This document shows positions 796 to 33,146 of a stretch of 64,000 nucleotides of DNA, in pieces. The translations under genes were made by a program, and so were the position numbers. Under the pieces are notes generated by a model. The model was not told the origin of the DNA. It saw only the letters and a program-made list of their open reading frames with translations, and did not search any database. Location: NCBI RefSeq assembly GCF_007833215.1, contig NZ_CP042239.1, forward strand, positions 992,001-1,056,000, read 5' to 3'. Numbering within the stretch: the first letter of the stretch is position 1; the number at the start of each line of letters is the position of its first letter. The stretch is from Sphingomonas suaedae (GTDB lineage: Bacteria; Pseudomonadota; Alphaproteobacteria; Sphingomonadales; Sphingomonadaceae).

Positions 796-1737
796 CTATG
801 GCCTGTTCTCGGTCTGCGGCTCCTCCGCGCCCTCCAACGCACTCGCGAAGTTCCTGCGCACAGTTCCAATACTCGGCACGCACAGGAAATTTCTGCACCA
901 TGCGCGTAGCCTGATATTCTGACGGCCATCTGTTGCGGGCGGATCGAGCGCAACGACATATGCGACCCAGAGCGATCCATCACCCGGACTGGTTGTCAAA
1001 AGAACGTCGTCAGTCGTGCGGACAAGTGGGTAGAAGCTGTTCTCAGTGACCCATGCCTGCGCGCGCGCCCATTTCCGGCCGCAGTCGGAGCCCGACATAC
1101 AAGTCGCGACCAGGGTGGCCCGCTTCTTCATCTTTGAAATCTCAGCGTCGGTGATGAAGTCTTTCGACGCTTCGATGTCGCCTGGCATGTAACAGTAGGG
1201 CTTCACGTCTGGAACCGGCGCGCCTGGCGGTAACAACTCCATGCGTTGAGGGCGCCAGTCCGAACCACGGCGGAAGTCGACCAGATAATGTCCAATGCTC
1301 GCGCCCGACTGATCCCTGACTTGCCAAAGTCCGCGTGCAGTTTGCCCCCGTTTAGCATGGATCAGTGCAACCGGATCCTCGACCAACGCGGCACCAGCCG
1401 CCCGTGCGAATGGATCGGTGACCGTCCCCGATCGCGCAAGCACAGCCACACCGTTCCCGATCCAGACCGCTTTCCCATTGCTCTGAAACAGGTCGGCGAT
1501 CCTGACATTGTCGGCGCTGCGCGCTGCGGACCAGTATTTGATTACCGCTGTTTTCGCAGGAGTACCGGCGTCGCCCGCGGTAAAGTCGGCAGCCCCCAGT
1601 TTGCCGGCGAGACATTCTTGATCGGCCGCCGCCTGCACGGCGTTATATACAGCCGCGCCATAATCCTGGGCCGCCGCATCATTGATCCAAAGCAGTGCGG
1701 AAAGCAGGGCACCTGCCAGAACTCGAAATCCCACCAC
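796..1737 (-). CDS. secreted hypothetical protein
   Basis: This encodes 313 residues with a clear signal peptide (hydrophobic LAGALLSALLW, then cleavage after DAAA near residue 23), so the product is probably periplasmic. I recognise no domain. The mature part has several cysteines (in QECLAG, YCYMPG, TCMSGSDCG and WCRNFLC) that could form disulfides. The start is one of two adjacent GTG codons (1737 or 1734), placed right after a run of G that can act as ribosome binding site; the ATG two bases upstream is out of frame. Base composition is visibly richer in A and T than the neighbours, and the gene interrupts the usual ispDF/dusB arrangement, so it may be a recent arrival. The function is unknown. 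Confidence 0.7.
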   Translation of the reverse strand: MVGFRVLAGALLSALLWINDAAAQDYGAAVYNAVQAAADQECLAGKLGAADFTAGDAGTPAKTAVIKYWSAARSADNVRIADLFQSNGKAVWIGNGVAVLARSGTVTDPFARAAGAALVEDPVALIHAKRGQTARGLWQVRDQSGASIGHYLVDFRRGSDWRPQRMELLPPGAPVPDVKPYCYMPGDIEASKDFITDAEISKMKKRATLVATCMSGSDCGRKWARAQAWVTENSFYPLVRTTDDVLLTTSPGDGSLWVAYVVALDPPATDGRQNIRLRAWCRNFLCVPSIGTVRRNFASALEGAEEPQTENRP

Positions 1738-1884
1738 ATCCCCCCAAACGTGAATTCCATAATGGCGACATCAATCGGGTTGCTGCTCTGACGGGCTAAC
1801 AAGCGAGCATTTGCCGCGCAACGAGGAACGCTTTCCTACACGCGATCGCCTCGCTAGGCACATCAAATGCTTTCACCGTCGACC

Positions 1885-2051
1885 TTTCTCCGTCAGTCCA
1901 AACCGGTTGTAATCGCGTCGCCGACTAGTCGCGACACTGTCGCCTCGCTGCCCGGCCCCGTCGCCCGGCCGTCGCACCATCGACGCGCAACCGTCGCTTT
2001 CCCGTTCAAGCGTGTCGCGCCGCTGTCGCTTCGCAGTCGTCCAGGTGTCGC
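1885..2051. repeat. phased GTCGC array upstream of ispDF
   Basis: The pentamer GTCGC starts at 1917, 1928, 1939, 1960, 1971, 1993, 2014, 2025 and 2047, with one-mismatch copies at 1982 (GACGC) and 2036 (GTCGT). Steps are 11 bases, or 21-22 where a unit is degenerate (1950 and 2004). Weaker copies GTCCA (1896) and GTTGT (1906) extend the array leftward. The six bases between cores vary. The units group into a 54-base pattern of 11+10+11+11+11, seen from 1885, 1939 and 1993. The array ends three bases before the ispDF start codon. It fills most of the gene-free gap 1738-2054; the rest holds an 8-base inverted repeat (AGCATTTG at 1806, CAAATGCT at 1864). What binds it, if anything, is unknown. 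Confidence 0.75.
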
Positions 2052-2054
2052 ATC

Positions 2055-3197
2055 ATGACCACCGCCGCCATCATCGTAGCCGCCGGAAAAGGCATCCGCG
2101 CAGGCGGAACCGTCCCCAAGCAGTTCGCCCCACTCTGCAGAAAGCCCATGCTTTCTCATAGCGTTACCGCACTAACCTCCCACCCGATGATAACTCCAAC
2201 CATCATCGTCATCGGCGAAGGGCAGCAGGACCACCTCCGCGCAATACCCCTCGAAAACGTCAGCTTCGTCCAGGGCGGAACCGAGCGCCGCGACTCGGTC
2301 CGCGCCGGGCTGGAGGCGCTGGAGGGCAAGGGCGTCACCCGCGTCCTGATCCACGACGCCGCCCGCCCCTTCATCCCCGCCGCAGTGATCGACGCGCTTC
2401 TCGCCGCGCTCGACCACGCTCCCGGCGCCGTCCCCGCCCTCCCCGTCGCCGATACGCTGGCAAAGGGCGCCGAAACTCTCGGCGACAACGTCCCCCGCGC
2501 CGGACTCAACCGCATCCAGACCCCGCAGGCGTTTCACTTCGACGCCATCCTCGCCGCCCACCGCGCCTGGCCGGATACCGAAGAGGCCACCGACGACGCC
2601 CAGATGCTGCGCCGCGCGGGCCATGACGTCGCGCTGGTTCCCGGAGACCCGATGCTCGAAAAGATCACCCACCCCGCCGATTTCGCAGCCGCCGAGGCGC
2701 GCCATGCCGCCACCCTCATTTCCCGCAGTGCCATGGGTTACGATGTACATCGCCTCCAGGTGGGCGAGGAACTGTGGCTAGGCGGCGTATTGATCCCGCA
2801 CGACATGGGGCTGGCGGGGCACAGCGACGCCGATGTCGCGCTCCACGCCATCACCGACGCGCTGCTCGGCACGATCGGCGCGGGGGATATCGGGATGCAC
2901 TTCCCCCCCAGCGACCCGCAATGGCGCGGCGCCGCGTCCGACCGGTTCCTCAACCACGCCGCCAGCCTCGTTCGCGATCGGGGCGGAGTCATCGACTTCA
3001 TCGACCTCACCCTGATCTGCGAAGCACCCAAGATCGGCCCCCACCGCGATGCGATCCGCACCCGTATTGCCGCGATATTGAAGCTGCCTCTCGCACGGGT
3101 TAGCCTCAAGGCCACCACGACCGAGCGGCTGGGCTTCACCGGTCGCGGCGAAGGCATTGCTGCGCAGGCCGTCGCCACCGTCCGTTTACCGGAGTAG
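2055..3197 (+). CDS. ispDF: bifunctional IspD/IspF of the MEP pathway
   Basis: This is a fusion of 2-C-methyl-D-erythritol 4-phosphate cytidylyltransferase (about residues 1-220) and 2-C-methyl-D-erythritol 2,4-cyclodiphosphate synthase (about 225-380), two non-consecutive steps of isoprenoid precursor synthesis in the cytoplasm. The IspD half opens with the nucleotide-binding AAIIVAAGKG and has a lysine in VPKQF, then IHDAARPF. The IspF half has the metal-binding GYDVHRL and GHSDADVALHAITDALLG, and ends with KATTTERLGFTGRGEGIAA. Fused ispDF is typical of alphaproteobacteria. The ATG follows directly on the GTCGC array, and no good Shine-Dalgarno sequence is visible. The downstream secreted protein starts 3 bases after the stop. 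The next pathway enzyme present here, dxr, lies at 28.6 kb. Confidence 0.97.
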   Translation: MTTAAIIVAAGKGIRAGGTVPKQFAPLCRKPMLSHSVTALTSHPMITPTIIVIGEGQQDHLRAIPLENVSFVQGGTERRDSVRAGLEALEGKGVTRVLIHDAARPFIPAAVIDALLAALDHAPGAVPALPVADTLAKGAETLGDNVPRAGLNRIQTPQAFHFDAILAAHRAWPDTEEATDDAQMLRRAGHDVALVPGDPMLEKITHPADFAAAEARHAATLISRSAMGYDVHRLQVGEELWLGGVLIPHDMGLAGHSDADVALHAITDALLGTIGAGDIGMHFPPSDPQWRGAASDRFLNHAASLVRDRGGVIDFIDLTLICEAPKIGPHRDAIRTRIAAILKLPLARVSLKATTTERLGFTGRGEGIAAQAVATVRLPE

Positions 3198-32699: not shown

Positions 32700-33146
32700 C
32701 TGGCCCTAATGTCTGTCGGGGGTTGGGAGCGGCGCGGACCTTAGGCGGGGGCGCGTGGGAAGCCAAGCGGGGAAACCGGCAAAGCGTGCCTCATTCCCGG
32801 GGCGCGGCGGGCGCGGGCCGGCGCGTGGCAAAGTTTACACTCGGTTGACACTATCGACGAGGTCGGCCGCGGGGCAGGCCGAGGGCATGTCGTTCGGATT
32901 TTGGCGCCCAAGCGTCGGGGCAGCGTCGCAGCGGTTGGGATCACGATGGAAAAGAGCGCGAACCAGCTGATTCGGATCGAGTTAAGCACATGAATTCCAA
33001 CATGTATCCAACAATCGGCAGGCACAGGGAGTTAGCCCCAAGCACGCGAGGGATCGCTAGCGATCAGGGCCCTGGAGTCACGACAGGCACAAAAAGGGCG
33101 CAGCCATCGCTGGCCGCGCCCTCTCTGTTTCGATCCGGAATCCGGC
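32700..33146. other. tsf-pyrH spacer, no recognised gene
   Basis: This gap holds the tsf terminator at its right end and no convincing gene. Noted features are two TTKACACT copies (TTTACACT and TTGACACT, 11 bases apart near 32834-32852), a perfect 14-base palindrome GATCGCTAGCGATC (33052-33065), and a plus-strand 15-codon open frame from 32946 (MEKSANQLIRIELST) without a family. The A/T-richer part (32830-33040) differs from its surroundings. The pyrH promoter must lie here, but no clear -35/-10 pair is visible on the minus strand. Confidence 0.5.
33091..33121 (-). terminator. terminator of tsf
   Basis: On the minus strand GGGCGCGGCCA pairs with TGGCTGCGCCC (one mismatch, loop GCGA) and is followed by TTTTT. 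It lies about 25 bases after the tsf stop. It would end most rpsB-tsf transcripts, so pyrH needs its own promoter. Confidence 0.9.

Follow-up and report, generated by a model that had tools for sequence, protein, structure and literature searches.

The 64,000-nucleotide stretch of the Sphingomonas suaedae chromosome analysed here (the window; NZ_CP042239.1, positions 992,001 to 1,056,000) carries, directly upstream of ispDF, a GTCGC pentamer repeated with an 11-bp period inside a leader open reading frame (ORF) that overlaps the start of the gene (Table 1). This repeat is one of many 11-bp-period arrays dispersed over Sphingomonas chromosomes, and it is probably a docking track for a small helix-turn-helix (HTH) protein whose own gene carries a like array. 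At ispDF, exact GTCGC copies start at 1917, 1928, 1939, 1960, 1971, 1993, 2014, 2025 and 2047 (successive spacings of 11, 11, 21, 11, 22, 21, 11 and 22), and two one-mismatch units, GACGC at 1982 and GTCGT at 2036, fall in register between them. The original prediction had reported nine exact and two one-mismatch copies in 135 bases and a chance expectation well below one, and both statements withstood recounting. The repeat is counted as real because nine exact copies compare with ~0.5 expected per 135 bp from the GTCGC frequency of the window, and with a maximum of 6 (reached once, mostly 4) in 200 first-order Markov windows of 64 kb.

Table 1. Features upstream of and at ispDF (window coordinates)
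Feature	Position	Strand	Remarks
CTTTCCTACA motif	1831..1840	+	-35 region of putative promoter; type B 5' module, reverse of TGTWGGA
-10-like element GCTAGGCA	1853..1860	+	14 nt upstream of leader ATG
Leader ORF, 63 codons, ATG to TGA	1867..2058	+	TGA overlaps ispDF start (TCATGACC)
GTCGCN6 array	1917..2051	+	nine exact and two one-mismatch units
ispDF, 380 aa	2055..3197	+	from the ORF list; gene name taken from the original prediction

Genome-wide, three GTCGC units spaced 10-11 bp apart gave 17 matches at 12 places in the source genome (G000; 4.15 Mb, one contig), with none in a reversed control. Eleven of these places are arrays of ~60-200 bp with the same period (L012 looks weak), and all eleven lie between genes as judged with a home-made gene caller, L017 and L019 beginning in the tail of an HTH gene that the caller missed. 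With a further array (L213) and a weak one (L207) also present, array positions are 0.21, 0.22, 0.26, 0.99, 1.34, 1.35, 2.33, 2.38, 2.40, 2.41, 2.58, 3.08 and 3.46 Mb on a contig that has a dnaA-like ORF (read by eye) at its start. Inspection without formal test gave no obvious origin or terminus bias, and the sampled GC skew was too noisy to use. The arrays flank many unrelated genes, upstream or downstream, and some have no following gene on the same strand. An ispDF homologue was present in all 30 genomes searched, and 11 of the 19 array-bearing genomes examined at ispDF have no array there. The search of this genome and its relatives thus recovered GTCGCN6 arrays, mostly not before ispDF, and the tie to this gene implied by the original prediction is wrong. 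Among 61 relatives, the three-unit pattern stood well over control in just a few genomes. A four-unit array occurs in 21 of 295 genomes of the genus (one match in one genome for the reversed control); the 21 include G259, whose match is a near-perfect tandem, and G254, whose match was left undissected. An order-wide draw of 296 genomes yielded six with a match versus two with a control match, the six comprising five from the source genus and G536 from another genus of the family.

The anatomy of the repeat was derived from 65 arrays, many of them orthologous to each other. Exact copies are spaced by 11 (293 instances), 22 (81), 21 (19), 33 (19), 32 (5), 10 (5), 5/6 (72) and 16/17 (21) bp, with a few others, while spacings of 12, 23 and 34 were never met among them; as the search seeds were biased towards 10-11 bp, only the 21-versus-23 and 32-versus-34 contrasts are unbiased. 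A spacing short by one is tolerated and one long by one is absent, which fits a helical face of ~10.5-11 bp. Among 132 degenerate units, 126 retain the first G, 104 retain C3, 99 G4, 79 C5 and 66 T2, and overall the arrays contain 8% A, 33% G and 39% C. Many are preceded by a module with either TGTWGG[AG] or the reversed motif TCCTACA (type B), the 5' side alone having been scanned. At 13 of the 32 listed loci with TGTWGG[AG], an ATG or GTG frame spanning the array starts exactly 30 nt downstream of the motif, and at 4 more the distance is 29 nt; at 15 of the 23 TCCTACA loci such a frame starts 33-38 nt downstream. The longer motif CTTTCCTACA has 20 matches in the source genome (control 3) and 23, 14 and 8 in three other array genomes (controls 2, 1 and 1), compared with 1, 4, 0, 1 and 0 in five array-lacking genomes (controls 2, 4, 0, 1 and 5). 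On the 3' side many arrays are followed by a module of two 9-bp repeats that varies between species (GTCAGCTTCGTCGGAC, GTCAACTTCGTCAACC, CTCCACTTTCTCCACTT, GCAACTTCCGCAACTTCG and others), the two halves of the species-specific pair tending to change together. Of the patterns tried for this module, YGTCMRSTTCGTCMRR was too loose, its control about equalling the signal; the pattern AATGTTGGA was too strict (3 matches across 9 genomes). A small conserved protein ending in VxFV, read in frame through the 3' module, was rejected as a general feature, given stops or frame changes at some loci and an end that is not conserved.

The original prediction had named random drift of the pentamers in the ispDF upstream regions of close relatives as the outcome that would count against it. 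In five genomes with ispDF leaders of equal length and no gaps, the GTCGC columns differ by 9-13% and the spacers by 42-51%, with shifted-column controls at 16% or more; at thiD, again in five equal-length genomes, cores differ by 4-6% and spacers by 20-26% (controls 7% or more). Retention of the cores amid drifting spacers therefore speaks for the array.

A candidate reader of the array is encoded beside it. Arrays L017, L019, L034, L043, L057 and L066 start within the tail of a small HTH gene, whose product is ~100 residues long and whose two strong copies in the source genome (2.576 and 3.457 Mb) are each followed by their own array; the ORF of the first occupies ~2,576,371-2,576,637 on the minus strand. 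In a sample of 60 genomes hand-picked from the surveyed lists (22 array-bearing: the 21 four-unit genomes and the weakly arrayed G028), an HTH match above 70 bits was found in 20 of 22 array-bearing versus 3 of 38 array-lacking genomes (p = 8e-11, ignoring relatedness). The exceptions are G234 and G254, with arrays and no strong match, and G005, G062 and G078, with a strong match and no array, although the HTH genes of G005 and G062 are also trailed by GTCGC-bearing stretches. Outside the genus, G536, which carries arrays, matches strongly (116 bits), and nine of its relatives without four-unit GTCGC arrays divide into three with strong matches (127-143 bits) and six with paralogues alone. Scanned for exact peptides, 84,980 species genomes returned 39 HTH loci in Sphingomonas, Sphingobium, Hephaestia and metagenome-assembled genomes, 38 of them long enough for analysis (36 of the partner type and two distant paralogues). 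Past the HTH gene, an 11-bp periodic stretch exceeded all 20 mononucleotide shuffles at 35 of the 36 loci (exception L262), with a best lag among 6-30 of 11 or 22 at 34 loci and 9 at two, whereas the same comparison found none after the two paralogues. In a merged, partly overlapping set, in which the two paralogues were not caught by the pattern and one locus was too short, 42 of 43 loci exceeded all 30 shuffles (exception L239). Source annotations name the protein in general terms only (LysR-family, AraC-like, HTH or hypothetical protein). It matches the phrog_4044 terminase small subunit (E 6e-6) and resembles Sf6 terminase small subunit (TerS), and its predicted model comprises four helices to residue 76 and then a low-confidence tail, all-helical and without strands. 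The Pfam scan returned just HTH_1, HTH_IclR, HTH_18 and HTH_29, all below cut-off, and no response-regulator domain; solved structures gave one match by sequence, at E 0.26, and Foldseek gave none against the PDB at E <= 0.001; families outside the VIA-align listing may still be related.

The case for the HTH protein as the reader of the array rests most strongly on a change of the unit together with the recognition helix. At 41 loci the helix reads GM/GI-S[RPQ]xSA and the units are GTCGC, GGCGC or weaker forms, the six loci with P at the second place having the least clear units. At L290 (GMTSRSAH) and L292 (GMTARSAH), TSRSAH or TARSAH replaces SRSSAH and the units are of the GACGyAnrTGg type. 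Dispersed variant arrays were predicted from these two loci before their genomes were scanned, and three GACnnAnnTG units in a row gave 95 and 11 matches in the two genomes and none in the reversed control; these fall at 14 and 5 listed places, one of which in G562 is the HTH gene's own array. The same search gave no match in seven other genomes. Both variant-array copies examined have the TCCTACA motif and a 3' module of 9-bp repeats. The two loci are related, and the scan of their genomes took in GACnnAnnTG, not GTCGC, arrays. Among the meanings first offered for the repeat, a cooperative protein-binding array is well supported by the partner HTH gene, the helical phasing, the conserved cores and this change of unit, while a structured leader is not.

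With the array, its dispersal, its co-occurrence with and adjacency to the HTH gene, the linked change of unit and helix, the conserved cores and the frame overlap established at the sequence level, binding of the arrays by the HTH protein is very likely. Each helical turn would take up one protomer, which would recognise G-T/G-C-G-C through the major groove, and head-to-tail protomers would cover one face of the DNA across some 6-20 turns; such a cooperative one-face filament is somewhat favoured. Upstream of ispDF, 16 of 20 genomes without an array there have a -10-like element 12-16 nt before the ispDF ATG itself, so that the array gives a longer leader to a gene that otherwise has almost none. 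The track would thus be placed between a leaderless-type promoter and the gene, inside the leader ORF, where our best guess is that it acts as a tunable roadblock or local nucleoprotein structure against incoming transcription, while the ORF would ensure that the leader is translated and that ispDF is coupled to it in translation. An effect of the array on ispDF transcription is a tentative proposal, while the explanation as a whole (genome-wide binding tracks for a dedicated HTH protein) we consider likely. Arrays that stand between a promoter and its gene suggest that transcription is affected, and arrays between convergent genes suggest a wider structural role.

Two known systems come closest in their workings, and membership in either is not established. 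ParR of plasmid R1 needs at least two 11-bp repeats (PMC9426499); that system shares with the present one direct repeats about one helical turn apart, and its small protein seeds a higher-order DNA wrap. The GTCGC arrays are likewise arrays of ~11-bp direct repeats, but they are dispersed over many loci, and ParR is typically a ribbon-helix-helix protein encoded beside ParM on a plasmid, whereas the partner here is predicted to be an all-alpha HTH protein on the chromosome. In phage packaging, the SPP1 pac site contains direct repeats and extends across the beginning of the TerS gene, and SF6 TerS showed little sequence preference (PMC4737164). Points of likeness are the phrog_4044 match and Sf6 TerS resemblance of the partner's HTH domain, and the direct repeats; the partner's length of ~100 residues and arrays adjoining housekeeping genes set them apart. 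It is about an even chance that a phage-terminase-like HTH protein became a chromosomal array binder in Sphingomonadaceae and makes up, with the dispersed arrays, a self-contained system that co-evolves and has changed specificity at least once (GTCGC to GACnnAnnTG) in step with the genome's arrays. The DNA might then be wrapped as in a small-terminase ring or a plasmid centromere and serve chromosome structure, leaderless-promoter gating or marks for gene transfer agent (GTA) packaging.

The alternative that survives best is a selfish repeat resembling a miniature inverted-repeat transposable element (MITE), in which the HTH gene and its array would be autonomous and short promoter-array copies parasitic, without host function. 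The 5' and 3' modules common to the copies, and the restriction of strong HTH genes to one or two per genome, are consistent with it. At thiD, inspected by eye in 14 genomes, an element precedes the gene in G015, G274, G241, G273, G026, G114 and G280 (the last with few GTCGC), while in G030 the start of thiD is overlapped by the stop of the preceding gene with no element between, and G000 has other DNA there; this presence and absence suggests gain or loss of elements. Against these points, several copies occupy orthologous places across species, and those at ispDF and thiD keep their cores. The 5' similarity of short copies to the genome's own HTH module is clear in G126 alone (0.82, compared with 0.80 for the nearest other genome) and hardly exceeds background for type B, and derivation of short arrays by deletion of the HTH gene was dropped, having G126 as its sole and bare support. 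The exact-peptide scan of viral contigs gave 45 pattern matches, none confirmed as encoding the HTH protein. REP/BIME repeats (repetitive extragenic palindromes and bacterial interspersed mosaic elements) come with a RAYT transposase, and resemble the present system in being dispersed intergenic repeats with a partner gene flanked by copies. They differ in that the GTCGCN6 unit is not palindromic, shows no excess folding in the window copy (z = -0.20; folding covered this copy alone) and forms 11-bp direct-repeat arrays, and in that the partner has Pfam matches to HTH families only. We regard the selfish repeat as possible, with the odds somewhat against it.

That the leader peptide is the conserved item, attenuating or coupling ispDF, with the 11-bp period as a by-product, is unlikely. 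Consistent with a translated leader, an ATG lies 14 nt past GCTAGG, in frame to the ispDF start, in all eight genomes with that layout (the window genome, G015, G241, G273, G274, G114, G026 and G280; ORFs of 52-63 codons), and G030 has a 30-codon leader without an array. GTCGC copies in these leaders number 5-9 in G015, G241, G273, G274, G114 and G026 and 2 in G280. Stop/start overlaps also precede genes read by eye as thiD, ileS and typA and hppA-like genes at L037 and L045; inspection found none at the hppA-like loci L014 and L165, or at L018, L038, L047, L054 and L061. Since an ORF of some kind ends where ispDF starts in 8 of the 20 genomes that lack an array there, the overlap alone is not rare there, and an open frame through the arrays is weak evidence of coding, both for that reason and because 8% A leaves few stops. 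Synonymous and nonsynonymous differences favour the true frame at thiD (104/132 versus 88/182 and 50/213 in the other frames), while at ispDF they are 73/154 in frame versus 60/161 and 65/148. The dismissal of coding constraint in the original prediction stands insofar as 11 is not a multiple of 3 and core variation shows no codon-phase signature among 70 near-units of framed arrays, and needs qualifying insofar as a reading frame to ispDF is retained; the arrays without a following gene on their strand also weigh against a peptide.

A signal acting in RNA (a structured leader, a Rho loading site or a series of RNA-polymerase pauses) is very unlikely. The promoter-like module, at loci where one was seen in the 5'-side scan, lies 5' of the array on the GTCGC strand and implies that the array would be transcribed in one sense, and the scarcity of A would suit such a signal. 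However, 83 of 200 shuffles fold as well as the window copy, and no Rfam match was found to E 1 in window positions 1700-2300. Rho utilization (rut) sites are C-rich, G-poor RNA, and the composition of the 65 arrays is unlike theirs; helical-phase spacing, and a unit that changes along with the HTH helix, indicate DNA. Direct repeats of 11 bp, with equal spacing and a 5+6 layout, also serve OmpR/PhoB-type response regulators (e.g. GlnR or the Pho box), but sites of this type, including those of ChvI (no GTCGC in the part of the ChvI literature consulted), are highly improbable here, as the partner that co-occurs and co-varies with the array lacks a response-regulator winged helix in Pfam.

The portion of the open-access literature searched, with subscription journals mostly outside its scope, yielded no description of the arrays or the HTH protein. 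An unexplained repeat is now tied to a specific uncharacterised protein, because its unit changes across the genome along with the recognition helix of that protein. The two form an immediately testable protein-DNA pair with a natural specificity switch for studying co-evolution of an HTH protein with dozens of sites. They are also a candidate for a new level at which chromosomes or promoters are controlled in a large environmental genus.

Several further observations concern individual loci. Arrays L018 and L061, from two genomes, are located upstream of what by eye looks like rho. In the G026 record (L129) two in-frame TGA codons occur inside ispDF, and at L009 the leader ORF and array are open and in frame to the end of a downstream ATP-grasp-like gene (by eye), an apparent N-terminal fusion. 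A sister element occupies window positions 32835-33015 on the minus strand, flanked by genes read as tsf and pyrH; it has TTGTTGGATACATGTTGGA (two motif copies 11 bp apart) and an 11-bp repeat GATAGTGTCAACCGAGTGTAAACTT downstream, resembling L208, L212, L214, L215 and L220 in the source genome. Two further HTH genes of the terminase-small-subunit-like kind and one gene resembling GH108 endolysins (L206, L211 and L217, at 139 kb, 1.10 Mb and 1.82 Mb) have the motif CTTTCCTACA upstream as well, a hint of a regulon of phage or GTA origin. The small ORFs L210 and L222 had no Pfam or NCBIfam match; at L222 a short ORF overlaps the gene start without an array. Leaders of the CTTTCCTACA type at L214, L215, L222, L224 and L225 stand before genes that were taken, by eye, for ruvA, Y-family polymerase, MOSC and trmFO.
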